Shown piece after piece: positions 3,759 to 13,101 of a stretch of DNA of 13,586 bases (position 1 is its first letter; each line of letters starts with the position of its first letter). The notes under the pieces are model-generated. The model worked only from the letters and a program-made list of their open reading frames with translations. It was not told where the DNA came from and made no database searches. The position numbers were made by a program, and so were the translations under genes. This stretch comes from Minisyncoccota bacterium (GTDB taxonomy: Bacteria > Patescibacteriota > Minisyncoccia > Phycocordibacterales > Phycocordibacteraceae): contig JALHML010000006.1 of NCBI GenBank assembly GCA_022844065.1, forward strand, positions 1-13,586, read 5' to 3'.

Positions 3759-4451
3759 ATGACAAAGCTCGTTGCACTCACGCCAGCACAGAAGGAAACA
3801 CTCACGCTTATCCAGAAGCACACGGAGAAGTATGGGCAGGCACCAACCATCACGGAGATGCGCGACACATTGAAACTCCGTTCACTCCGAAGTGTTACGC
3901 AGCGTATCGAGAGCCTTGAAAAGAAGGGGCTTATAACAAGGAATCGTTTCCAGCATCGCGGCGTCGCTCTACTTGAAGGAGTAGGGTCCCAGCTTTCGTC
4001 CGATCTCATCCAGGTGCCGGTTATAGCGTCCGCCGGCTGCGACGCTATGGACGTGTACGCAGAGCAGAGCTTTGGCGAATACATCGTTATAGACCGAAGC
4101 CTCATTGGCGGACGTCGAGAGAGCACGAATATCGCAGCGGTACGCGCCGTAGGGGACTCTATGCAAGACGCAGGGATTCACAGTGGCGACTACGTTATCG
4201 TTGAGGTTACCGATCAAGTTGAGAATGGTGACAGAGTCGTGGCCATCCTCGGAAACATGGCTGTTATCAAGCGCTTTGAATGGGTTGATGAGGTTGTGTA
4301 CCTGAATCCAGAGAATAGATACGGCACCTATCATCCGATCGTGGTGCGGGAAGAGGATTCAAAGGTCTTTGGAAAGGTCCTTTCCATAATTCCCGGCACT
4401 GAGTGGGTGGACGATATAAAGATCGAATACTACACCGAGCAGCAAGTCTAA
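3759..4451 (+). CDS. lexA: LexA-type transcriptional repressor (S24 self-cleaving)
   Basis: The 230-residue protein has an N-terminal winged helix (about 6-62: LTPAQKETLTLI, PTITEMRDTLKLRS, SVTQRIESLEKKGLITR) as in LexA, and a C-terminal S24 latch domain. The self-cleavage bond is likely A92-G93 (IASAGCDA). The catalytic dyad is S134 (AVGDSMQDAGI) and K171 (MAVIKRF). All residues needed for RecA-stimulated autocleavage are therefore in place. The frame is open from 3552, but the ATG at 3759 is preferred: it gives the usual LexA N-terminus, lies after the upstream terminator and follows a promoter. The gene is a good candidate for the SOS master repressor, although a LexA-like regulator of a narrower regulon is possible. 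A long palindrome lies immediately downstream, before the next gene. Confidence 0.88.
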   Translation: MTKLVALTPAQKETLTLIQKHTEKYGQAPTITEMRDTLKLRSLRSVTQRIESLEKKGLITRNRFQHRGVALLEGVGSQLSSDLIQVPVIASAGCDAMDVYAEQSFGEYIVIDRSLIGGRRESTNIAAVRAVGDSMQDAGIHSGDYVIVEVTDQVENGDRVVAILGNMAVIKRFEWVDEVVYLNPENRYGTYHPIVVREEDSKVFGKVLSIIPGTEWVDDIKIEYYTEQQV

Positions 4452-4468
4452 AAAGCGCATACTCCATG

Positions 4469-4501
4469 AATAATGTATGTAGTTTAACTACATACATTAT
4501 T
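4469..4501. promoter_or_regulatory. 33-bp perfect palindrome, candidate operator
   Basis: Two 16-bp arms around a single central T (4485) are exactly complementary; the core reads GTAGTTTAACTAC. The palindrome begins 18 nt after the LexA-like stop and covers the place where the -35 of the next gene's promoter (-10 at 4514-4519) would lie. It is AT-rich and lacks a following T-tract, so an operator (repressor-binding site) is more likely than a terminator. Confidence 0.6.
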
Positions 4502-4513
4502 GAAGTCAGACGC

Positions 4514-4519
4514 TATACT
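4514..4519 (+). promoter_or_regulatory. -10 box of the HAD-lipid kinase gene
   Basis: TATACT lies 9 nt before the ATG at 4529. No Shine-Dalgarno is visible in the 9 nt between. The palindrome at 4469-4501 occupies the -35 region. Confidence 0.45.
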
Positions 4520-4528
4520 CGTCGAACC

Positions 4529-5977
4529 ATGAAGTACTTCTTCGACTTCGACCGCACTGTTTTCGATACGGAGTCTTTCAAACATGCCTATGAGAAGCGT
4601 CCATCAATTCAAGAGCTCCTACACCAAGCAAAGGAGGCACTAAAAGAATTCTTTGGCAACAAGCGATCTTCCTCTCGGTATCGCATATTTTCTCGTACGA
4701 TTGGCACCTATTTAAGCCACCGACGTTTCGGCTTTGTGCCCGAAGAATTGAAAGAGTACCTCTATCCTGATGCAGCAGCCTTTCTTGCAGCACACAGCGA
4801 GGATTGCACGATTGTTACCTACGGTGTCCGCGCATTCATAACAGCAAAAGTCGCTAACGCACTAACGAGCTACCCACTCGGAGATATTGTGTATACTCCT
4901 CGCAAAAAAGGACGAAGGCTTCGTCGTCTGACAGAAGGAAAAGACGGACCCTTCATTTTTGTAGACGATGCACACTTTCAGCTTGAATCGGTGGGGAAGG
5001 TGTGTCCCGACATTAAGCTTTATGAGATCCGAAGAGATGGGCACAAAGGTGATGGACGCTGGCCAGTTATTCGCTCTTTTGAAGAACTTCCCGGATACAC
5101 CCCTGCTCCAATTAAGTTCTCAACAGCACGCGTCGCTGCGATTCTTAATACCGCGAGTGGCAGTTGCGACACAGCAGCAGAAGAGATAGTCCAGACGCTT
5201 CTTACGGACGCAGGGATCACAGAACCTAAAGTTTGGTGTGGGGACGGGAGTTATATGGAGACGGCCTTTAATGAAATGAAGGCGTTCGATCCCGATGTGC
5301 TTATCGTACTAGGGGGAGACGGAACTATTCGTGCCGGTGCAGAAGCGTGTACCAGTTCTAGACCACTTCTAGTACCGCTTCCGGGCGGAACCATAAACAT
5401 GCTCCCGAAGGCTCTCTATGGGACTCTGTCGTGGCAAGACGCACTCAAAGGTGTGCTGCATAATCCGAAGATACGAAACGTCTCAGGCGGCAGTATCAAG
5501 GGGCGCCAGTTTTTTATAGCAGCAATAATTGGTGCCCCCACTTTATGGGCAAAGGCACGTGAAGCCCTTAGAGAAGGGGACTTGTCTGCGGTTGTTGAGA
5601 AAGGCGTGCATGCATTCCAGAACATGCTCTCGCTCAAGATTAGGTATTCATTCTCCGAGACTGAGAGCGGGGAAGCGGATGCAGTGTCTGTTATCTGTCC
5701 GTTAATTTCCGATGTTATGGATGATGCCGAGCAGTCCCTTGAAGCTGCAGTTGTCGAGGTTGCTAACGCAGGGGGAGTACTTGAACTTGCGTCAGCCGCC
5801 GCCTTCGGCAAGTGGCGGGAAAGTACACGCGTTACAACCGTTAAGACTCGCACAATTAAGGTTTCTGCAGACGAGGATATTCCCCTTATTCTCGACGGAG
5901 AGACAATGGATCTTGGGAAGGAAATTGAAATTCTGTTTGTCCCAAGGGCGTTTAAGGCCATAGTGCCAGGCACTTAG
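4529..5977 (+). CDS. Fusion: HAD-like domain plus diacylglycerol/lipid kinase catalytic domain
   Basis: The 482-residue protein joins two recognisable parts. Residues 1-185 look like a HAD-superfamily hydrolase: DFDRT with D6 and D8 as the motif-I aspartates, CTIVTYG (93-99) as motif II and the acidic IFVDDAHF (143-150) as motif IV. Residues about 200-482 are a DAGK/YegS/BmrU-type kinase domain. It has an NTASGS loop (207-212), the nucleotide-binding LGGDGTI (261-267), PGGTINMLPKAL (285-296) and the C-terminal LDGETM (455-460), matching the family's DGE element. The frame is open from 4403, but the ATG at 4529 begins directly with the HAD motif, falls after the palindrome and is preceded by a -10 box. 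Known relatives phosphorylate diacylglycerol or related lipids, so phospholipid or glycolipid turnover is a reasonable guess. Coupling of a phosphatase-like domain to a lipid kinase is unusual. The exact substrate of either half cannot be told. Confidence 0.82.
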   Translation: MKYFFDFDRTVFDTESFKHAYEKRPSIQELLHQAKEALKEFFGNKRSSSRYRIFSRTIGTYLSHRRFGFVPEELKEYLYPDAAAFLAAHSEDCTIVTYGVRAFITAKVANALTSYPLGDIVYTPRKKGRRLRRLTEGKDGPFIFVDDAHFQLESVGKVCPDIKLYEIRRDGHKGDGRWPVIRSFEELPGYTPAPIKFSTARVAAILNTASGSCDTAAEEIVQTLLTDAGITEPKVWCGDGSYMETAFNEMKAFDPDVLIVLGGDGTIRAGAEACTSSRPLLVPLPGGTINMLPKALYGTLSWQDALKGVLHNPKIRNVSGGSIKGRQFFIAAIIGAPTLWAKAREALREGDLSAVVEKGVHAFQNMLSLKIRYSFSETESGEADAVSVICPLISDVMDDAEQSLEAAVVEVANAGGVLELASAAAFGKWRESTRVTTVKTRTIKVSADEDIPLILDGETMDLGKEIEILFVPRAFKAIVPGT

Positions 5978-6045: not shown

Positions 6046-7161
6046 ATGAAAAAAGCCCTTCTGGTTCTAGCTGTCTTCTCAGCACTTTCTCTCGCGCCTG
6101 CCGCTGAAGCGTGTAGCGTCCTAGCCCTTGATCGCCCTCTCACCGGGTCTGAAATGATTAAGGATAAGGATGCGGTTTTCATCGGTACAGTTACTGGTGT
6201 TTCCAGGGACAAGAGCATTTATGGCGAGTACCACATCACCTTTGCTGCTGAGGAGTCATACAAGGGAGCGGTAGACGGAACGATTACGGTCCGCGCTCAG
6301 TCGAGCTCTGCAGCCTGCGGCTATGACGACGCGTACAGTTCCTTTAAAACGGGTTCGGCTTGGACCATCTATGCGACTGGAAACGCTACTGATGGCTACA
6401 TGACAAATAGCGTTTCTTCAAATACAAAGTATGCGTCTACTGCAGACGCAAGGAAGGCACTTATTGGTCTTGGGCTCTCTCCGGAAGACACCGGTCCAAC
6501 CATGTGCACCATGCAGTACCAGCCTGTCTGTGGAAAAGATGCGTCAGGAGCAATAAAGACGTATGGAAACTCCTGTGCACTGGGAGCAGCAAAGGCACAG
6601 TACCTCTATGACGGAGAATGTAAGGCTCCGGTAGCGAAAGTACCCGCAAAAGATCTATGGAAGGGGGTGCGCAGTACGGACGTAACGTGGTTACAGGACT
6701 TCCTTGTGTCTAAAGCAACAGGGAAGGCTGCCCTTTCTCTTGGGGCCGTTGGTTCAACTGGATACTTCGGCTCTCTCACAACAGCTGCTCTCGCTGAGTT
6801 TCAGAAAGCGAACGGCATTACACCGGCATTCGGCTACTTCGGTGCAAAGACGCGTGCGTTCATCCTCTCAATCATTGCACCAGCCGTAACTTTTACCGGA
6901 GCAATCTCAGCGGTTAACACAGGGTGCTTCGCTGACGGCATTTGTAGCATTACGGTAGACGGGAAAGAGATTATTCTTCTTGCAGGATTCCGCATTCCTC
7001 CAATCCCAGACGTTGGCAGCTTAAAGGGTGTTGATTCCATTGGGGACCTTGAAGGCGAAATTGGTTCCAAGGCTGAGGTCTATGCTACACCCACAAAAGA
7101 AGGAGATGCTGGATACACTCTCTACGGAAGCACGTTGTACTACGTAAAGGTTCTGGACTAA
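6046..7161 (+). CDS. Secreted NTR/TIMP-like, Kazal and peptidoglycan-binding composite protein
   Basis: The 371-residue protein has a strong signal peptide with likely cleavage after AEA, leaving C23 as the first mature residue. Residues 23-112 resemble an NTR/TIMP-like fold (KDAVFIGTVTGV, FAAEESYKG, C91, GSAWTIYATG). Residues 153-192 form a short Kazal-type inhibitor domain with four cysteines (C154, C162, C177, C192) and the signature PVCGKD...KTYGNSC. Residues about 205-275 are a peptidoglycan-binding-like helical module (DVTWLQDFLV, GYFGSLTTAALAEFQKANGI, GYFGAKTRAFI). A C-terminal beta domain (281-371, C294 and C300 in CFADGICSITVDGKEI) also appears in other Patescibacteria surface proteins, as far as I recall. 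TIMP and Kazal domains elsewhere inhibit metallo- and serine proteases, so protection of the cell envelope from proteases is an inference. It is a single-gene unit with its own -10 box, convergent with the FBP gene. Confidence 0.82.
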   Translation: MKKALLVLAVFSALSLAPAAEACSVLALDRPLTGSEMIKDKDAVFIGTVTGVSRDKSIYGEYHITFAAEESYKGAVDGTITVRAQSSSAACGYDDAYSSFKTGSAWTIYATGNATDGYMTNSVSSNTKYASTADARKALIGLGLSPEDTGPTMCTMQYQPVCGKDASGAIKTYGNSCALGAAKAQYLYDGECKAPVAKVPAKDLWKGVRSTDVTWLQDFLVSKATGKAALSLGAVGSTGYFGSLTTAALAEFQKANGITPAFGYFGAKTRAFILSIIAPAVTFTGAISAVNTGCFADGICSITVDGKEIILLAGFRIPPIPDVGSLKGVDSIGDLEGEIGSKAEVYATPTKEGDAGYTLYGSTLYYVKVLD

Positions 7162-7175
7162 CGATTCGAGTCGAT

Positions 7176-7211
7176 AAAGAAAAACCGCCGGGTCCTTTTG
7201 GATCCCGGCGG
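7176..7211 (-). terminator. Rho-independent terminator of the FBP gene
   Basis: Arms CCGCCGGG (7185-7192) and CCCGGCGG (7204-7211) form a perfect 8-bp stem, extended by TCC/GGA with a one-base bulge. Read on the minus strand it runs into TTTTTCTTT, a good terminator. On the plus strand no T-tract follows, but the same hairpin may weakly stop the convergent 6046-7161 transcript. Confidence 0.8.
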
Positions 7212-7218
7212 CTCGCAG

Positions 7219-7689
7219 TTAGTAGCAGTGATCGAAGAACCGTTCAGCTTCTTCGATAATTCTCACTGCCTTCTCCTCAATACCGATAGTTTCAGACATT
7301 TGGTTTGGCGGCACTGCGACGAGGCGACGAATACGCAGGCTGCACAGCAGATCCTCGCAGAAATCATTTCCGATTTTCCGATTCGGGTTGCGAGTATCCT
7401 CTGCGACGAATAGCCGTACTCCTTGATTTCCGTGAATGGTTTTACACAGATTACACATGCGGACATGCCGTCTTGCTGAAGTCGAAGCACTGCTCCGACT
7501 TAATATAAGGCCACGCATTTGTCCGTGATGTTCCATCACCATAAACCCACGCGCACTCCCGATATCGATCCATCCTAAGAATTCAAGTTCTGGCCATTGC
7601 ACTGTCTCCAGTAAGGAGGGCAGCACTATTTTTTTGCGGTGCTTTCTGGGAAAAGCATCGATGATTTCGTGTCTTTGCAGGTATTGCAC
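7219..7689 (-). CDS. FBP-domain protein (FusB-like, EF-G-binding treble-clef zinc finger)
   Basis: The 156-residue protein matches the stand-alone FBP-domain pattern familiar from Actinobacteria. A short helical N-terminus (EIIDAFPRKHRKKIVLP) is followed by LEFLGWIDIGSARGFMV and then a zinc knuckle CNLCKTIH. After it come DFCEDLLCSLRIRR, giving the CxxC...CxxxxC zinc ligands, and a C-terminal helix IEEKAVRIIEEAERFF. Family members FusB/FusC bind elongation factor G and release it from stalled ribosomes, giving fusidic acid resistance; most short homologues are uncharacterised. The GTG at 7689 is chosen because GAAAGGAG ends 7 nt upstream. The TTG one codon earlier would be too close. This clear Shine-Dalgarno differs from nearly all the plus-strand genes. 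The gene has its own promoter and terminator, suggesting a recently acquired single-gene unit. Confidence 0.85.
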   Translation of the reverse strand: MQYLQRHEIIDAFPRKHRKKIVLPSLLETVQWPELEFLGWIDIGSARGFMVMEHHGQMRGLILSRSSASTSARRHVRMCNLCKTIHGNQGVRLFVAEDTRNPNRKIGNDFCEDLLCSLRIRRLVAVPPNQMSETIGIEEKAVRIIEEAERFFDHCY

Positions 7690-7696
7690 CAACGTT

Positions 7697-7705
7697 CTCC
7701 TTTCA
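7697..7705 (-). promoter_or_regulatory. Shine-Dalgarno of the FBP gene
   Basis: On the minus strand TGAAAGGAG lies 7 nt before the GTG start at 7689. It decides the start codon and is one of only two clear ribosome-binding sites in the window. Confidence 0.8.
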
Positions 7706-7721
7706 AAATTGAATGAGCAAT

Positions 7722-7756
7722 CTATATTGTTATATAGTATTTAAACAGTTAGTCAA
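7722..7756 (-). promoter_or_regulatory. Promoter and dyad of the FBP gene
   Basis: On the minus strand TTGACT (7751-7756) and TATAAC (7729-7734) are 16 bp apart. The inverted repeat CTATAT-TGTT-ATATAG (7722-7737) covers the -10 box and could be an operator, though in AT-rich sequence it may be chance. Confidence 0.5.
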
Positions 7757-7814
7757 TAACTCTCCCTCTTCCCAAATACACAGAATGACTGTATGAATAG
7801 GGCGCAAAAAGGAA

Positions 7815-7820
7815 TATAGT
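7815..7820 (+). promoter_or_regulatory. Possible -10 box of the swivel-domain gene
   Basis: TATAGT lies 22 nt before the ATG at 7843. No convincing -35 is found 16-18 bp upstream, and the intervening leader has no Shine-Dalgarno. The remaining 150-bp divergent gap (7693-7842) shows nothing else. Confidence 0.3.
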
Positions 7821-7842
7821 TACCTAGCTTACACGCACTACT

Positions 7843-9303
7843 ATGTTAAGAAGCCTGGACGCGTCCTTGGTTCCCGATGAATGGAGACGTATTAATATGC
7901 GTACCGTCGCCCATCTTCTTGGTGTCGAGTTTATTCATGATCTATACAACAGATACGACCCAAGAATAAATGCCGTTAGATTTAGGCATACGGTTACCGT
8001 ATGGAAAGATGGCATTGTTAACTCGTATGCACCCAAAACCGAATGGGAGGAGCTTGGTAGGATCGTGGGATATCAATATTACTCTTTAGATGAGTCAATA
8101 ATACGCGCAACAAGGGCTCTCTATAAGACGAAGCGTAAGTACTATTACAAGCTCATGCGCGCCCTCGAGCATACGGACCTTGAGAATATGGCAGACAGGG
8201 ACCTGGCATCAGTACTATTAAATTTCCAGTCGGTGGTATTGGGCGAGCTGTACGTACTAAATTTCGTACAAGTGGAGCATGGGCTTAATACCGCAATAAA
8301 ACAGGTCATATCCGAGATCGCTGATGACCCGTCTCAAGTGGATGAGATCTTTGTAAATTTAATCGGCACAGAAGTTCCTACTGAATCCCAGAGGGAGAAG
8401 CACCGCCTTTTAAAGCTTTCATTGAAGCACCGTTTCCTAAAGACAATAGGCATGTATGAGGAGCCTCGAGCAAAAGCAGATGTCCTAAGACATTGCGCTA
8501 AGTATTCTCACTTGTATTCCGCATATGGTGAGAACCCCCGAGATTTTGAACATTTTTGGGACGAATTCAATTCATTTTTGAAGAACTCCAATCTGCCAAC
8601 ATGGCACTTATTCCCAAAACTTCTATCTCCGGTCTCAAAGAAGAATTTAATCTCTCTGCGCAACAAAAAGCTTTCTGTGCTTGTGCCTTTGCTTGTATGT
8701 GGCGGTATATTCCGTGACAAAAATAAAGCGCTCCTCGGAAACAGTCTTAAGTATCGTTTTGCAGTACTCGATGAAATTGCCAGGAGAGGACTTGAGGGCA
8801 GAGCTAATCTTAATTATTATCTTCTTTCAGAAATTATTGACCTGCTACGCAAGGGAGAAAAGTTGCAAGCTCAAGTGATTGCTCATCGAGCTGAAGAGGG
8901 CGTAATACTTAGTAGACAAGAAAATTTCTCTCTCTATACCTCAGATATGGATTCCTTGCTTACTAAGGATAGCGCTCCTACCTCCTTAAAAGGGCAGTGT
9001 GCTTCAAAGGGAACTGCTCGCGGCAAATGTAAGATAGTTTTATCAAAAGATGACGTCGATAAGGTTCAGGAGGGGGATATTATGGTCGCCATTGGAACAG
9101 ACTTTGATCTAATTGAAGCGATGTATCGAGCCTCTGCAGTTATAACTGAAGAGGGTGGTATTCTCAGCCACGCCTCAGTTGTGTGTAGAGAGTTAAAGAA
9201 ACCCTGCTGTATAGGAGTGCAAGACGTTACCCGTCAACTTAAAGATGGACAGATAATAGAGGTAGATGCCACCCACGGACAGATTACTGTTATTAAGGAC
9301 TAG
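7843..9303 (+). CDS. PEP-utilizing-enzyme mobile (phosphohistidine swivel) domain protein
   Basis: The 486-residue protein ends in a PEP-utilizing mobile domain (about 383-486): KGTARGKCKIVLSKDDVDKVQEGDIMV, EEGGILSHASVVCRELKKPCCIG and DGQIIEVDATHGQITV. H443 in the ILSHAS loop aligns with the phosphorylated histidine of PEP synthase, PPDK and rifampicin phosphotransferase. Residues about 300-380 (YRFAVLDEIARRG, NLNYYLLSEIIDLLRKGE) follow the pattern preceding this domain in those enzymes. Residues 1-300 are basic, partly helical and unrecognised, and would be the acceptor-binding part. No ATP-grasp domain is present; a separate one is encoded at 11504-12439 on the same strand, so the two may act together. 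The stop TAG overlaps the stop of the convergent histidine phosphatase in a shared CTAG. No Shine-Dalgarno is seen. Confidence 0.82.
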   Translation: MLRSLDASLVPDEWRRINMRTVAHLLGVEFIHDLYNRYDPRINAVRFRHTVTVWKDGIVNSYAPKTEWEELGRIVGYQYYSLDESIIRATRALYKTKRKYYYKLMRALEHTDLENMADRDLASVLLNFQSVVLGELYVLNFVQVEHGLNTAIKQVISEIADDPSQVDEIFVNLIGTEVPTESQREKHRLLKLSLKHRFLKTIGMYEEPRAKADVLRHCAKYSHLYSAYGENPRDFEHFWDEFNSFLKNSNLPTWHLFPKLLSPVSKKNLISLRNKKLSVLVPLLVCGGIFRDKNKALLGNSLKYRFAVLDEIARRGLEGRANLNYYLLSEIIDLLRKGEKLQAQVIAHRAEEGVILSRQENFSLYTSDMDSLLTKDSAPTSLKGQCASKGTARGKCKIVLSKDDVDKVQEGDIMVAIGTDFDLIEAMYRASAVITEEGGILSHASVVCRELKKPCCIGVQDVTRQLKDGQIIEVDATHGQITVIKD

Positions 9304-9860
9304 ATAATATCCTTTACAACTTCTCCATCCTCAACAATTCCATAGGCGCAGAATCCGGTCTTTGACCATCGATCTGGAAGTGAAGAGTTTGCGCCCAGTA
9401 GTTCTGCGAAATATATATTTAGAACAGTGCCGTGGGTAACTATTAATACTGTCTTTCCCGGATTCAGTTCTGTCACCTCTTTAACTCCTGCTTTGAAACG
9501 TGCAAGTGCAGTGACGCCTGATTCGCCGTTAAATGCAGTATATTCCAGATCTTCGAGCTGTTTATTTTTTTCCTGCTCAAATTCTTCCTTGGATAGGAAT
9601 TTCTCTCCTCGAGCTACTTCATTGAAAGCAGCTATGGGTGTGCTGGTCTTACCAAGCTTATCAGCGAGAGGCTGAACCGTTAGCGTCGTCTTACGCTCCT
9701 CTGAAACATAGATTACATCTACTGAATTCATTACGTCTATATCTTTAACCTGCTCTGCTTCAGATTTTCCGGATTCAGAGAGGTCCCATAGGGTGGCATG
9801 TAGCTCAGGGTCCTTCTGGGTATCCGCGTGCCTAAGGAAAATGATTCGGTTTTTTGTCAT
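9300..9860 (-). CDS. Histidine phosphatase (phosphoglycerate mutase/SixA superfamily)
   Basis: The 186-residue protein has the branch-2-histidine phosphatase landmarks. FLRHADTQ at the N-terminus contains R10 and the phospho-accepting H11. E81 (FNEVARGE) and VTHGT with H143 complete the set. The RHA rather than RHG triplet is shared with SixA-type phosphohistidine phosphatases, but the protein is longer than SixA (about 160 residues), and its substrate could equally be a sugar phosphate or nucleotide. The stop overlaps the convergent swivel-domain gene by 4 nt. The -10-like TACTAT (9868-9873 on the plus strand) lies 7 nt before the ATG with no Shine-Dalgarno, as in the plus-strand native genes. 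Its place next to a phosphohistidine carrier suggests, but does not show, that it acts on it. Confidence 0.87.
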   Translation of the reverse strand: MTKNRIIFLRHADTQKDPELHATLWDLSESGKSEAEQVKDIDVMNSVDVIYVSEERKTTLTVQPLADKLGKTSTPIAAFNEVARGEKFLSKEEFEQEKNKQLEDLEYTAFNGESGVTALARFKAGVKEVTELNPGKTVLIVTHGTVLNIYFAELLGANSSLPDRWSKTGFCAYGIVEDGEVVKDII

Positions 9861-9867
9861 ACACGAA

Positions 9868-9873
9868 ATAGTA
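9868..9873 (-). promoter_or_regulatory. -10 box of the histidine phosphatase gene
   Basis: On the minus strand TACTAT is followed by 7 nt (TTCGTGT) and the ATG at 9860. There is no Shine-Dalgarno and no clear -35. Confidence 0.4.
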
Positions 9874-9896
9874 CCAGTAAAGTGGGGTAAATGAAG

Positions 9897-9929
9897 AGGG
9901 GCGCCAGCATTTGATTTGCTAGCGCCCCT
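9897..9929 (-). terminator. Terminator hairpin after the cupin-nucleotidyltransferase unit
   Basis: AGGGGCGC (9897-9904) pairs with GCGCCCCT (9922-9929), and after one mismatch a further 4 bp (AGCA/TGCT) extend the stem to about 13 positions. On the minus strand a weak T-containing tail (CTTCATTT) follows. It lies 28 nt past the stop of the nucleotidyltransferase gene. Confidence 0.65.
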
Positions 9930-9956
9930 GGAGGTTGTGTTTGCTTCTTGTGATTG

Positions 9957-10655
9957 CTAGGCGAGCGCATGGAGCAGGCTTTCGTAAATCTCGGGTACGT
10001 TGACATTGAAGCCGACGACGCCGGGATTGTATCCTGTGACGAGTCTTTCCGGAATCAGGAGATCGAAAAGCTCGTCTTCCTTATGCGCTTCCATTCTTTC
10101 GAGTCTTTCCACCACCTCTGGAGTGGGGTCGATGATGTAGCAGCCCATGTTTATTAAGTCCTTCTTCGAAGTTCGAAGAACTCGTTCCCATGAACTTACG
10201 TGGCCATCCTGCACATGGAAGCGTGCACCCTTTGGTGCGGCGACGCTGCGGGCGACCAGAATAGAGACAGGTCGCTCGTGGCTTTCATGGAATTTTTCGA
10301 ATTCATCCCACGAAAAGTCGCAATAGAAGTCACCGGCGCATCCGTAGGCTCGCGATTTTGTCGCAAGTACCTGTCGGACGAGCGGGCCAAGGGGCCCAGT
10401 CATGTGCGCGTCTACTGAGACATTCGTCACGGCCAGCTTTTCCAGTCCCAGCACGATGCGGGGATAGGTTTCCTTACTGGACCACACACGCACTTCGTCA
10501 AAACTTCTCCCTGCCTTTTGGACGATCTCACCCAAGAGGGTTCCTCCGTCCGTCGGAATTGGCAACAGGTGTTTGGGAAGGAAGGGGGACATCGTGGCGA
10601 TATACGCCGCAATGCGTTCCCCCTTACCTCCCGCGCTAACGTTCAGCGTCTTCAT
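9957..10655 (-). CDS. Nucleotidyltransferase-like protein (NTP_transferase fold)
   Basis: The 232-residue protein looks like a sugar-phosphate or related nucleotidyltransferase. LNVSAGGKGERI (4-15) takes the place of the LAGGxGTRL loop, and LPKHLLPI (26-33) carries the lysine of the PKxxxP motif. Further marks are CAGDFYCDF with metal-binding type D109, INMGCYIIDP (168-177) and a GFNVNVPE end (215-222). It lacks C-terminal beta-helix repeats, so it is a minimal single-domain enzyme. The GGKGER variant of the loop is unusual, and the sugar and nucleotide cannot be read from the sequence. Its ATG overlaps the stop of the bicupin gene by one base (TGATG), so the two are translationally coupled. 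Codons are more C/G-ending than in its neighbours, consistent with recent acquisition of both genes. Confidence 0.72.
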   Translation of the reverse strand: MKTLNVSAGGKGERIAAYIATMSPFLPKHLLPIPTDGGTLLGEIVQKAGRSFDEVRVWSSKETYPRIVLGLEKLAVTNVSVDAHMTGPLGPLVRQVLATKSRAYGCAGDFYCDFSWDEFEKFHESHERPVSILVARSVAAPKGARFHVQDGHVSSWERVLRTSKKDLINMGCYIIDPTPEVVERLERMEAHKEDELFDLLIPERLVTGYNPGVVGFNVNVPEIYESLLHALA

Positions 10656-11371
10656 CAGGCCACTGCCAAAGCAGGGGTTCTGATGGAGTCGATCACGTTC
10701 GCGCTCACACCGTCGACGAAGGTCCGGTTCACCATGGGATGGTCATCGTCAGTCATTCCGGTATCGCTATCAGGATGAAACGTGATGACGTCCATGATGT
10801 CGTTTTCCGTATCGAAGCTGTGCACCGTTTCCGGCAGCATCACGAAGGCGTAACCCGGAACGAGCGAAACGCGCCGACCCTCATCGGGAAGAACGCATAC
10901 ACCCGAACCACGGTAGACCGCATTCACCCGAATGGACGGGTGAGTGTGCGGCGTCTGCACAGTCCCCGGGGGGAAGTGCAGATGGTTCAGACACGGATCG
11001 CCCTTCCTGACAGGAGGAACGAGAAGCGAGTCTGTGCTGCCGTCGATATAACGGAGCCGGCCCTGATCTTCAAGAGGTCCGCCGCACATGTTGATGCCGA
11101 CGTATCCACGGGAAGAAATCAGGATGCCGGAACCGCTGCCCGTGAGGAGCATCGGACCGACACAGGAGAAGTAGTCACCTGCGTAGAGCGAGCGACGACG
11201 ACCCCGGTAGTTCAGCAGCACCTCACCGTCGAGAACGACACCGAAGTGACTGTACCCGTGATGAAGGCAGGTGCAGGCGCCAGGCACGAAGCCTGAAACC
11301 TGTGTACCGTCCTCGTGTTCGTAGAGAACCCGAGGGCCCAGTTCGAGAGCCAAAAACCCAGTACGAGACAT
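10655..11371 (-). CDS. Bicupin-type protein with altered metal site
   Basis: The 238-residue protein has two cupin-like barrels. The first (about 25-95) has LHHGYSHFGVVLDGE and YAGDYF. The second (about 125-200) has FPPGTVQTPHTHPSIR and VPGYAFVMLPETVHSFDT. In the second barrel H142, H144 and H184 fit the metal ligands, but the usual glutamate of the first cupin motif is R148, so metal binding or catalysis may differ. The C-terminal FHPDSDTGMTDDDHPMVNRT segment also looks family-conserved. Cupins include isomerases, dioxygenases and sugar-binding sensors, and none can be chosen here. Coupling to a nucleotidyltransferase favours sugar or nucleotide-sugar metabolism. The ATG is supported by AAGAAAGG 7 nt upstream and by a promoter. 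Confidence 0.72.
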   Translation of the reverse strand: MSRTGFLALELGPRVLYEHEDGTQVSGFVPGACTCLHHGYSHFGVVLDGEVLLNYRGRRRSLYAGDYFSCVGPMLLTGSGSGILISSRGYVGINMCGGPLEDQGRLRYIDGSTDSLLVPPVRKGDPCLNHLHFPPGTVQTPHTHPSIRVNAVYRGSGVCVLPDEGRRVSLVPGYAFVMLPETVHSFDTENDIMDVITFHPDSDTGMTDDDHPMVNRTFVDGVSANVIDSIRTPALAVA

Positions 11372-11378
11372 GGCATTA

Positions 11379-11386
11379 CCTTTCTT
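11379..11386 (-). promoter_or_regulatory. Shine-Dalgarno of the bicupin gene
   Basis: On the minus strand AAGAAAGG ends 7 nt before the ATG at 11371. Such a site is absent from most genes of the window. Confidence 0.65.
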
Positions 11387-11412
11387 ACAAAGGACGAAGA
11401 CCTTTCAGTCCT

Positions 11413-11427
11413 GTCTCACGATGAGAC
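11413..11427 (-). promoter_or_regulatory. Leader hairpin or operator upstream of the bicupin gene
   Basis: GTCTCA and TGAGAC form a perfect 6-bp inverted repeat with a 3-nt loop, placed about where transcription from the -10 box at 11434-11439 would start. It could be a repressor site at +1 or a 5'-end RNA hairpin. Confidence 0.4.
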
Positions 11428-11433
11428 GTGGTG

Positions 11434-11462
11434 ATAATGCTACCAAAAACCTATTTTGTAAA
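11434..11462 (-). promoter_or_regulatory. Sigma70-type promoter of the bicupin-nucleotidyltransferase operon
   Basis: On the minus strand TTTACA (11457-11462) and CATTAT (11434-11439) are exactly 17 bp apart. This gives a leader of roughly 55 nt containing a hairpin and a Shine-Dalgarno, unlike the neighbouring genes. Confidence 0.6.
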
Positions 11463-11491
11463 GTTTTAGCATACGTTCTATAGGACCAAGA

Positions 11492-11497
11492 TATACT
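11492..11497 (+). promoter_or_regulatory. -10 box of the ATP-grasp gene, leaderless-type
   Basis: TATACT is followed by 6 nt (TACTTA) and the ATG at 11504, so +1 would fall on the A of the start codon. No Shine-Dalgarno is present. Confidence 0.5.
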
Positions 11498-11503
11498 TAC
11501 TTA

Positions 11504-12439
11504 ATGAGATACATTTTCGCGTTAGATGGCTCCAAACCATTCACAGCAGCGGATATAGGCGGAAAAGGGGAATCGCTAAATGCACTTGCATGTATGGGGG
11601 TCACAGTGCCAAAAGTATTCGCTCTCCATACGTCTGCGTTTAAGACCTTTATAGAGGAGAATAATCTTAGCGAAGATATTTCCAGTGCCCTCAAACATAT
11701 TGAGGGGAAATCCTCGGTTGAAATAGCTGAAATATCAGAACAGCTACAAAGCCTTATCAAGACCGGAACAGTACCTGAAGAAATTACTACTGAAATTTTA
11801 GAAGCCTACCGCACCCTAGGTACAGAATATATTGCCGTTCGCTCGAGTGCGCCATCCGAAGACGGTCGATCCGCTGCATGGGCTGGACAACTAGAAACAT
11901 TCCTAAATACATCTGAAGAAAAAGTTATTGAACACGTCATCAGTTGTTGGGCATCCTTGTATTCTCCTCGCGCCATTCAGTATGTGTTAAGAACAGGTTC
12001 ATTAACTGACAAGACTGTATCGGTGCTGCTTCAGGAAATGATTCAAAGCGACGTCTCAGGTACTGCTTTCTCAGTCCATCCCGTGAGCGAGGATACAAAT
12101 GAGATCATTATTGAAGCAGGGCAGGGATTAGGAGAGGCAATAGTTTCCGGTCAGATTCAACCAAGTAGCTTTGTTGTTACCAAGGAGCCACGCGAGATTC
12201 TTACAAAAAATATTGCTGTTCAAGAAAAGAAGCTTGTGGGACAGGCTGGAGGCGGAAATGTTTGGATTAAGGTAGATAAGGCTTTAGCGCATTATCTTTC
12301 CGATGAGATGGTGCTATCGCTAGCGGAGTCTATAACCAAAATAGAAGCTGCCTACGGATATCCTATTGATATTGAATGGGCCCTTAAGGATTCGAGAATA
12401 TTTATCTTGCAGTCCCGTCCGATAACTTCTTTGCAGTAA
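11504..12439 (+). CDS. Stand-alone PEP/pyruvate-binding (PPDK_N, ATP-grasp) protein
   Basis: The 311-residue protein is the ATP-binding half of PEP synthase/PPDK/rifampicin-phosphotransferase enzymes. It shows IGGKGESLNAL (18-28), VPKVFALHTSAF (35-46), the VRSSAPSEDG loop with R113 (112-121), AWAGQLET and VLLQEMIQSDVSGTAFSVHP. The end carries IIIEAGQGLGEAIVSG, PIDIEWA (287-293) and the family's terminal ILQSRPIT (301-308). The protein stops just after QSRPIT, exactly where a full-length enzyme would continue towards the swivel domain. It therefore should need a separate phosphohistidine partner, and 7843-9303 encodes one. In the family this domain uses ATP to phosphorylate the swivel histidine. 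All expected motifs are present, so it looks functional. The gene is divergent from the bicupin operon and 59 nt before the HIT gene. Confidence 0.88.
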   Translation: MRYIFALDGSKPFTAADIGGKGESLNALACMGVTVPKVFALHTSAFKTFIEENNLSEDISSALKHIEGKSSVEIAEISEQLQSLIKTGTVPEEITTEILEAYRTLGTEYIAVRSSAPSEDGRSAAWAGQLETFLNTSEEKVIEHVISCWASLYSPRAIQYVLRTGSLTDKTVSVLLQEMIQSDVSGTAFSVHPVSEDTNEIIIEAGQGLGEAIVSGQIQPSSFVVTKEPREILTKNIAVQEKKLVGQAGGGNVWIKVDKALAHYLSDEMVLSLAESITKIEAAYGYPIDIEWALKDSRIFILQSRPITSLQ

Positions 12440-12481
12440 GAACCCCGCTACCATCCATAGCACTTAGCTGGGCATGGGTTT

Positions 12482-12489
12482 GCTATACT
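12482..12489 (+). promoter_or_regulatory. Extended -10 box of the HIT gene
   Basis: GC preceded by T gives TGCTATACT (12481-12489), an extended -10 element, 9 nt before the ATG at 12499. No Shine-Dalgarno is visible. Confidence 0.5.
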
Positions 12490-12498
12490 TTTGGTTAT

Positions 12499-13002
12499 AT
12501 GGGGAATTACAGTCCGGTTACACAACAGAATAAATGTGTCTTCTGCGATATCGTTAAGCGAAATGACCCTGATGCGATCTTTTGGGAAGACGATAATTAT
12601 GTCGCGTTCCTATCTATAGATCCAAATACTCCTGGATTTAGTCTTGTGGTTCCAAAAGAGCATCTTGATAGCGACATCTTAAAAATGGATGACGTGCTAT
12701 TGCGCGAGTTTATAATTGCCGCAAAGAAGGTAGCAAAGATTCTCGAAGACTTTTATCCCGATGTGGGGCGTGTGGGCTTGATCATGGAGGGAACGGGTAT
12801 AAACCATGCACACATTAAGCTTGTGCCTTTTCATGGCACAGAGCACCTCAAAACAGGAGAGTGGAAACAGCATCTATCTGGCGTAGAGCACTGGTTCGAT
12901 TCGTATGAAGGTTGGGTCTCTTCAGCTGGCGGGCCTATGGCAGATAAAAAGTCATTGATAGAGCTATCCAAAAAGCTCAAGGCTACCTATTGTAATTCTT
13001 AA
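12499..13002 (+). CDS. HIT-family protein
   Basis: The 167-residue protein begins with CVFCDIVKRNDPDAIFWED (C13 and C16, as in zinc-binding HIT proteins) and has the FLSIDPNTPGFSLVVPKEH core. The histidine-triad region is GINHAHIKLVPFHG. The family signature HxHxH becomes H-A-H-I-K followed by a His four residues later in PFHG, a variant branch in which the active histidine is probably the second of the pair. HIT proteins hydrolyse or transfer nucleoside phosphoramidates, dinucleoside polyphosphates or NMP groups through a His-NMP intermediate. About 50 residues after the triad, including a Trp-rich stretch (HWFDSYEGW), are an extension. It follows the ATP-grasp gene by 59 nt but has its own extended -10 box. 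Confidence 0.87.
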   Translation: MGNYSPVTQQNKCVFCDIVKRNDPDAIFWEDDNYVAFLSIDPNTPGFSLVVPKEHLDSDILKMDDVLLREFIIAAKKVAKILEDFYPDVGRVGLIMEGTGINHAHIKLVPFHGTEHLKTGEWKQHLSGVEHWFDSYEGWVSSAGGPMADKKSLIELSKKLKATYCNS

Positions 13003-13023
13003 AGTATCGTTTTAAGACTATGA

Positions 13024-13052
13024 TTGACTTATTCTAATAAATAGTTTATATT
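13024..13052 (+). promoter_or_regulatory. Distal sigma70-type promoter of the hicBA-like module
   Basis: TTGACT (13024-13029) and TATATT (13047-13052) are 17 bp apart, the best full promoter on the plus strand in this window. It would give a leader of about 60 nt containing the palindrome GCGCA-A-TGCGC (13063-13073) and the arms CTTCTCT/AGAGAAG. Confidence 0.5.
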
Positions 13053-13074
13053 TGATTGATCAGCGCAATGCGCA

Positions 13075-13101
13075 CTTCTCTACATTTTTTCTTTAGAGAA
13101 G
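13075..13101. promoter_or_regulatory. Inverted repeat, candidate operator of the hicBA-like module
   Basis: CTTCTCT (13075-13081) and AGAGAAG (13095-13101) are exactly complementary arms 13 nt apart. They flank the position of the -35 for the TATAAT box at 13108-13113. HicB-type antitoxins commonly repress their own operon, so this is a plausible binding site. Confidence 0.45.

Follow-up and report, generated by a model that had tools for sequence, protein, structure and literature searches.

The window analysed here is a stretch of 13,586 nucleotides from a Minisyncoccota bacterium, whose assembly comprises 625,677 bases in 107 contigs and is 78.61% complete. Within it, a gene for a protein with a phosphohistidine swivel domain and a gene for a standalone ATP-grasp protein lie on the same strand, together with several neighbouring genes (Table 1). 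A sequence-only reading had interpreted the two genes as the separated halves of an enzyme of the phosphoenolpyruvate (PEP) synthase, pyruvate phosphate dikinase (PPDK) or rifampin phosphotransferase (RPH) type, and both open reading frames (ORFs) are indeed intact at the coordinates and on the strand that it gave, with every motif it quoted present. Its distance of about 2.2 kb between them is also correct, but this interval is not empty, since the three minus-strand genes for the histidine phosphatase, nucleotidyltransferase and cupin proteins lie there. Given the evidence described below, we consider it rather likely that the window pair is a two-component dikinase of the RPH/HpeHI type acting on a polar small molecule, which is then nucleotide-activated by the nucleotidyltransferase.

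Table 1 Features of the swivel and ATP-grasp locus in the window
Feature	Position	Strand	Basis or remark
Acceptor and phosphohistidine swivel protein, 486 aa	7843..9303	+	acceptor about 1-377, swivel about 378-486
Acceptor-site motif R291-D292-K-N-K295	8713..8727	+	alignment to 5fbs; RPH counterpart R666-E667-x-x-K670
Catalytic H443 codon	9169..9171	+	TEEGGILSHA motif
Standalone ATP-grasp (PPDK_N) protein, 311 aa	11504..12439	+	PF01326
Histidine-phosphatase family protein, 186 aa	9300..9860	-	PF00300, 1.6e-19
Sugar-type nucleotidyltransferase, 232 aa	9957..10655	-	motifs AGGKGER and LPKHLLPI; relatives at other loci
Cupin protein, 238 aa	10655..11371	-	PF07883, 3.8e-10
FBP_C, EF-G-binding-type treble-clef zinc-finger protein, 157 aa	7219..7692	-	PF16571, 1.1e-28
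HIT (histidine triad) protein, 167 aa	12499..13002	+	PF01230, 1.9e-9
Presumed promoter region between the divergently oriented FBP_C and swivel genes	7693..7842	.	layout
Presumed promoter region between the divergently oriented cupin and ATP-grasp genes	11372..11503	.	layout

Catalytic residues and domains of the two proteins

The swivel domain (PF00391, E = 3.4e-20) covers residues 409-479 of the first protein, with H443 inside TEEGGILSHA, and the T/S-x-x-G-G-x-x-x-H swivel motif (PMC12167813) is present as TEEGGILSH. A database search with this protein gave 337 matches; among the 120 listed, 118 are at least 450 aa long (the window's own included), and H443, R291, D292 and K295 are invariant in all 118. 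The sequence likeness to RPH starts at about residue 290 and spans the R-D-x-x-K site in the alignment to 5fbs. The Arg and Lys of RPH are retained, and the position of RPH E667 is Asp in each of these 118 proteins; the roles of the RPH acceptor-site residues R666, E667 and K670 have been described (PMC4844700). The predicted structure of the swivel protein aligns from residue 14 onward to RPH 329-867 with a large root-mean-square deviation (rmsd), and the six of the 50 listed structure matches that clearly reach the acceptor domain are all RPH, covering up to residues 7-485 (rmsd 24-28, TM 0.33-0.41 by query length, with the whole protein folded). By alignment and predicted fold, the N-terminal part appears to be an acceptor domain of RPH type. 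The first 300 residues had been called unrecognised, a description that gives way to a likeness to RPH from about residue 290 in sequence and about residue 14 in structure, while the accompanying idea of an acceptor-type domain agrees with this likeness. Many polar residues of this domain are invariant in 47 aligned proteins, e.g. E29, H32, N43, R46, R48, Q143, E145, R349, R358 and E360, which suggests that the acceptor molecule is polar. In one database protein, P0190 (693 aa), a swivel occurs together with ABC-type ATPase domains, through either fusion or, possibly, an artefact of the reading frame.

The ATP-grasp protein matches PF01326 with E = 4.2e-80 (269.9 bits, cut-off 27), and its sequence matches among known structures include PEP synthase (8a8e, 5.6e-48), the RPH ATP-grasp (5hv6, 3.5e-47) and HpeI (9goj, 1e-42). 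Its K21, R113 and T132 correspond to K22, R117 and T136 of RPH. When searched against the database, it gave 3,204 matches at 0.55-1.75 times its length, and in all 120 that were listed K21, R113 and R305 are invariant, with Ser in 84 and Thr in 36 at position 132; seven of the ten organism-named proteins among these 120 belong to Patescibacterial groups. Invariant catalytic residues in both proteins indicate conserved protein families rather than chance frames.

The assignment to the PEP synthase/PPDK type was not borne out, as no PEP/pyruvate-binding domain was detected by Pfam in either protein. The search covered the PEP/pyruvate-binding barrel and also carbohydrate-binding modules, and neither was found in the swivel or the ATP-grasp protein at E 0.01. 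The idea that the pair is a divided PEP synthase or PPDK of central metabolism is therefore rejected and has hardly any probability left, even though the ATP-grasp protein scores highest with PEP synthase models and a PEP synthase chain: the acceptor part resembles RPH, for which pyruvate is not a substrate (PMC4844700). Both proteins also stay below the cut-off of the rifampin phosphotransferase model NF041857 (999 bits), at 68.2 bits for the swivel protein and 221.7 for the ATP-grasp protein.

Split and fused relatives

Related loci were collected by a genome scan of 84,980 species, each represented by a single genome, from which the best 80 of 557 confirmed loci were kept. Among these 80, eleven loci (L033-L043) match the near-full swivel protein at identities of at least 30%; L046 spans it at 24% and was classed as a separate array-type protein. 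By title, the eleven hosts comprise a Halobacteriales archaeon, two Saccharibacteria (one Microsaccharimonas), an Aminicenantes, an Aenigmatarchaeon, two Mollicutes, a Bacilli, a Firmicutes, a Proteobacteria and a Clostridia member. In 11/11 the swivel gene has an ATP-grasp next to it or joined to it, so that the search of related genomes suggested by the sequence-only reading yielded both neighbouring and fused forms. Five are single ORFs in the order acceptor, swivel, ATP-grasp: those of L038, L039, L040 and L042 (763-766 aa), and that of L041, a fusion of 972 aa with a nucleotidyltransferase at its C terminus. Split genes occur at five loci, with the swivel gene first in L033, L036 and L037 and the ATP-grasp gene first in L034 and L035. 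Because these loci differ, gene order is free and carries little meaning in the two-gene form, so the inverted order emphasised before has little weight for the window, and it is real and notable in the fused relatives only. Nor do all single-chain enzymes have the ATP-grasp before the swivel, as had been assumed, since plant glucan, water dikinases show the reverse (PMC5575247). At L043 (9911-12278) the layout is fused as in L038-L042 with an interrupted swivel/ATP-grasp frame, and at L034 (1368-2840) the swivel gene is broken by one in-frame TAG; decay or assembly error is possible in both.

The domain order was further tallied in 103 database proteins new to a second search (120 of 246 matches listed), using a model of the longer ATP-grasp type alone, with which fused ATP-grasps still scored. 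The acceptor-swivel-ATP-grasp order was found in 79, the same followed by a nucleotidyltransferase in 4, and a swivel alone in 18; of the remaining two, one has the ATP-grasp first and two swivels and the other has two swivels. Most of these fusions are closely alike (the first 64 listed share at least 60% identity with the query) and are thus not independent events. A model of the fused protein P0121 (pLDDT 87.7, pTM 0.65) aligns at residues 97-485 to RPH 443-867 (rmsd 28) and at 493-763 to RPH 1-315 (rmsd 2.7), which makes it a natural circular permutation of RPH. This permutation shows how freely the ATP-grasp moves around the swivel. Two of the database proteins carry species names, the fused P0193 of Anaerocolumna aminovalerica and the swivel protein P0204 of Halocatena salina; both organisms are cultured.

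A recurring gene neighbourhood

Within the window, the cupin gene overlaps the start of the nucleotidyltransferase gene by one base, and 10 promoter-like sites were found over 7150-13100 against 8.7 expected, which is not above chance. Profiles of the neighbouring families were run over 12 loci (the window and L033-L043), some profile members coming from the same loci. FBP_C was detected at 8 of the 12, the histidine phosphatase at 8, the nucleotidyltransferase at 6, the cupin at 4 and HIT at 3. Matches beyond the training sets comprise FBP_C at L034, L038 and L043, the phosphatase at L033, L038, L042 and L043, and the nucleotidyltransferase at L036. As controls, 59 loci of 3 to 20 kb around other swivel-type-domain genes, mostly from organisms that are Bacillus-type by title, were scored (L054-L112), and none of the five families was found at any of them, with an ATP-grasp at 5; ten further loci (L044-L053) gave a cupin at 1, an ATP-grasp at 2 and no other module family. 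In tblastn searches with the window proteins at 1e-6, the nucleotidyltransferase was found in five loci, the phosphatase in two and the cupin in one (L041), and FBP_C and HIT had no match at the relatives' loci. These blanks, set against the profile matches, indicate that FBP_C and HIT recur as families and not as close orthologues.

The individual families were characterised further. FBP_C was confirmed by Pfam in L035, L039 and L041. The histidine phosphatase lies near the swivel gene or is joined to it at 7/11 of the relatives' loci, L037 being a case of fusion. A HIT gene adjoins the ATP-grasp gene in the window and in two Saccharibacteria, L034 (by Pfam) and L035 (by profile), and the window HIT protein matches NF007965 at 7.5e-5. 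The window nucleotidyltransferase has no Pfam match of its own; it weakly resembles mannose-1-phosphate guanyltransferase beta (5.9e-5) and has relatives at 5/11 other loci, among which L041 and L037 match PF00483. In L041 and four database proteins it is part of the kinase chain, and from this fusion we infer that the product of the kinase feeds the nucleotidyltransferase. For the window cupin, a PDB sequence search gave weak matches only (best 0.032). Taken together, the phosphatase, nucleotidyltransferase, cupin, FBP_C and HIT genes and the kinase halves form a recurring module that is sporadic in bacteria and archaea. A protein of about 403 aa is encoded directly downstream of the dikinase gene in L038, L039, L040, L042 and L043; its L039 copy (L039:12283-13494) has no Pfam, NCBIfam or significant PDB sequence match. 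Elsewhere in the window, 4403-5977 encodes a HAD-like domain fused to a diacylglycerol-kinase/NAD-kinase-like protein (HAD-DAGK), the halves of which occupy separate frames in G082.

The recurrence of FBP_C, together with the predicted RPH-type fold and the very patchy distribution, could also be explained by a protection island against a ribosome-targeting compound, in which an RPH-type kinase inactivates the compound and a FusB-like protein protects or clears EF-G. The FBP_C of L039 weakly matches FusB-family resistance models, at best with 2.2e-9 and 37.4 bits where the cut-off is 375. However, many FBP proteins are ordinary cell components, and such an island would leave the nucleotidyltransferase, cupin, HIT and, at Firmicutes-type loci, the importer unexplained. 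A defence system was also sought, and no PADLOC match was found at E 0.01 for 8 proteins (5 from the window and 3 from relatives, with HIT and phosphatase excluded). We regard a protection island as quite unlikely.

Comparison with known dikinases

The split itself is not new, because HpeHI, CreHI and PpsAB are RPH-type two-component dikinases already on record (PMC12167813). In these systems the swivel and an RPH-like acceptor lie in one protein and the ATP-grasp in the other, with a conserved His, and the window pair has the same division, with a putative acceptor domain. Both components are required in the published cases, which use a phosphohistidine mechanism that the window pair would share. 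HpeH is 71.1 kDa and the window swivel protein 486 aa. Unlike these phenolic dikinases, the window pair lacks aromatic-degradation neighbours and is surrounded by phosphatase, nucleotidyltransferase, cupin, FBP_C and HIT genes, and its family differs from the HpeHI kind in the swivel-first fusions and the nucleotidyltransferase of its relatives. By analogy, the window pair would work like the two-component dikinases, but we do not file it as a phenol kinase.

The ATP-grasp and swivel of RPH (PMC4844700; 5fbs, 5fbt, 5fbu, 5hv1-3) have window counterparts, as probably does its acceptor domain, and RPH residues K22, R117, T136, R666 and K670 and the catalytic His are kept in the pair, with Asp for E667. 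RPH is one chain in the order ATP-grasp, acceptor, swivel, whereas the window has two chains and the fused relatives run acceptor, swivel, ATP-grasp; there is no reason to expect rifampin as the acceptor. In plant glucan, water dikinase (PMC5575247, PMC12892837), which also has a phosphohistidine domain, the PPDK-like nucleotide-binding domain is C-terminal, as in the fused relatives, but this enzyme has carbohydrate-binding modules and acts on starch. In mainly open-licence literature, we found no description of Patescibacterial arrays or split forms, of circular permutation in this enzyme class, or of split synthases beyond the papers cited.

The formation of a phosphorus-nitrogen bond was also considered. 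The combination of a kinase with a nucleotidyltransferase of sugar type is reminiscent of the two opening steps in methyl phosphoramidate synthesis, and HIT proteins include nucleoside phosphoramidases. The kinase might thus act like phenylphosphoamidate synthase or the glutamine kinase of Campylobacter, and the nucleotidyltransferase might make a nucleotide-linked phosphoramidate that is cleavable by HIT. In L041, the ATP-grasp region of the fusion has a match, best over 499-718, to NF004508, a model that covers Cj1418 and, presumably, marks kinship to glutamine kinase. The Pas-alpha/beta enzyme of Desulfatiglans anilini is likewise a two-subunit ATP-dependent kinase with a phosphohistidine, and phosphorylates an amine (PMC7500099); it differs from the window pair in that its substrate is aniline and it belongs to a carboxylation pathway. 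Given that HIT occurs at just 3/12 loci and that the remaining pathway enzymes were not seen among the scanned neighbours, we give this explanation little credence.

Proposed reaction and pairing of the two proteins

In the two-component dikinase that we favour, the reaction would follow the steps of RPH and HpeHI. ATP would be bound by the ATP-grasp protein, at which the swivel domain of the second protein would dock, and H443 would accept the beta-phosphoryl group with release of AMP and Pi. The swivel domain would then return to the acceptor domain of its own chain, and R291, D292 and K295 may guide phosphoryl transfer there to the polar small molecule. The nucleotidyltransferase, whose gene lies between those of the two halves, probably adds a nucleotide to the phosphorylated product and so activates it, and the cupin, histidine phosphatase, HIT and EF-G-binding-type proteins would serve the same accessory pathway. 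What the analysis shows is the structure of the genes, their intact catalytic residues, the predicted fold and how the parts recur and fuse among relatives; the pairing within this genome, the reaction with its order and the role of the nucleotidyltransferase are all read from gene content and likeness.

The earlier inference of a two-component phosphotransferase has gained ground, given that the halves are the sole copies in the assembly (PF00391 and PF01326 each have one match there, namely the swivel and the ATP-grasp protein), that an ATP-grasp partner is present in 11/11 relatives and that the N-terminal part looks RPH-like. The proposed look for other partners in the same genome yielded none in the 78.61%-complete assembly. 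Further, two pairs of relatives were found: the swivel protein P0004 (80%) and the ATP-grasp P0226 (62%), whose longest contigs are both of 59,947 bases, and P0015 and P0273, whose longest contigs are both of 32,177 bases. From the equal contig sizes alone, each pair presumably lies on one contig. We infer that the window proteins are paired from their sole copies, the shared module with its HIT neighbour and these two pairs.

Several observations weigh against this interpretation. In a tree of 54 ATP-grasp domains, that of the window falls inside a clade of 30 (support 0.996) made up mostly of Patescibacterial standalone, array and giant-fusion ATP-grasps, with two from ATP-grasp-first proteins, and the ATP-grasps of ten other loci (L033-L042) fall outside it, L043 not being in the tree. 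This placement means that the window lineage appears to pair its swivel protein with a different ATP-grasp. The swivel and ATP-grasp genes do not form a single operon, and the fold match for residues 14-290 depends on RPH entries alone at large rmsd. The module profiles were trained partly on the loci scored, those for cupin and HIT on all positives, and the controls come mostly from Bacillus-type genomes, where many of the swivel genes are probably pyruvate kinases. The nucleotidyltransferase is present at just 6/12 loci, with L038-L040, L042 and L043 lacking it and having an importer instead, which in L039 is of the SsuA/TauA kind. The genome is incomplete, and misbinning may have occurred, since the 524-aa HAD-DAGK protein of the same contig has a match in 11/83 genomes of the genus (its own included) and merely moderate relatives there (44-56% in G082 and 45% in G073); both may weaken the case.

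The tree position of the window ATP-grasp could mean that the halves are unpaired, with a general Patescibacterial ATP-grasp serving other swivel proteins and the true short ATP-grasp located in the missing fifth of the genome, which is 78.6% complete. In other Patescibacteria, arrays do combine one ATP-grasp with several swivel genes. Against this, the assembly has no second swivel domain or ATP-grasp, the pairs P0004/P0226 and P0015/P0273 have equal longest contigs and are taken to share them, and the ATP-grasp gene adjoins a HIT gene as in the two Saccharibacteria. The window ATP-grasp also groups with those of P0225 and P0226 in a distinct clade on a long branch (support 1.0), which would suit a dedicated partner. 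We therefore judge unpaired halves to be unlikely.

Distribution and wider significance

Occurrence was counted in genome samples, each count including the genome on which the search was centred. The swivel family was found in 1/397 genomes of the window's order (1e-40) and 1/383 of its class, in 2/244 of the class of L035 (the second being L034) and in 1/195 of the order of L033; the fused form was found in 1/193 genomes of the order of L039. A profile search of 379 genomes of the phylum gave 26 at 1e-40, with the window at 733 bits and the next best at 191 bits, and because of this score the other 25 were judged to hold different swivel proteins. This very patchy spread suggests lateral transfer of an accessory function. 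Plasmid records had no match at 1e-20, and viral contigs, searched without a phage collection, gave nothing beyond fragments of the swivel domain at 2 loci.

The two-component dikinases described in the papers cited here act in aromatic catabolism, and homologues in other processes are expected by the HpeHI authors (PMC12167813). The window family looks like one such homologue outside aromatic catabolism. Its natural fusions, within a sporadic gene set that crosses domains, indicate which parts work together, and the recurring EF-G-binding-type gene suggests, from recurrence alone, a specific and testable tie to translation. As a tentative proposal, which we hold as possible but doubtful, the module may be a pathway that moves laterally and is common to archaea and bacteria. 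Its circularly permutable dikinase of RPH type, either split or joined to a nucleotidyltransferase, would produce a nucleotide-activated metabolite with a link to translation by way of a FusB-like EF-G-binding protein. Such a pathway would be a new small-molecule modification or protection system, with a swapped-in ATP-grasp in the window lineage.

Swivel arrays and giant fusions in other genomes

Other Patescibacteria (L147, L148, L154, L155, L156 and L158) and Woesearchaeota (L048 and L052) have a standalone ATP-grasp with 1-8 neighbouring swivel genes, mostly of about 350-590 aa. Among 14 regions fetched for swivel matches, some of which end at a contig edge, an ATP-grasp was found in 11, fused in three. 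Giant ORFs with an N-terminal ATP-grasp followed by swivel units lie at L149:1646-10981 (7 units, 3111 aa), L150:3298-8889 (4 units, 1863 aa) and L151:11520-14945 (2 units, 1141 aa), and resemble an assembly line. The R[DE]xxK/R pattern is absent at the searched spacing in 81/96 array-type units with a recognised His motif, a search that misses other spacings, 18 units with an unrecognised His motif and L034, where the swivel gene lies in two frames. PEP synthase has a Thr two positions ahead of its His, and so do 8/8 units of L147, 6/7 of L149 and 1/4 of L150. Phosphohydrolase-type genes are located in or beside arrays, of the HAD type at L147:11446-12051 and L048:17755-18357 and of the HD type at L158:10340-10963 and L153:7727-8326, which suggests phosphate-ester turnover.

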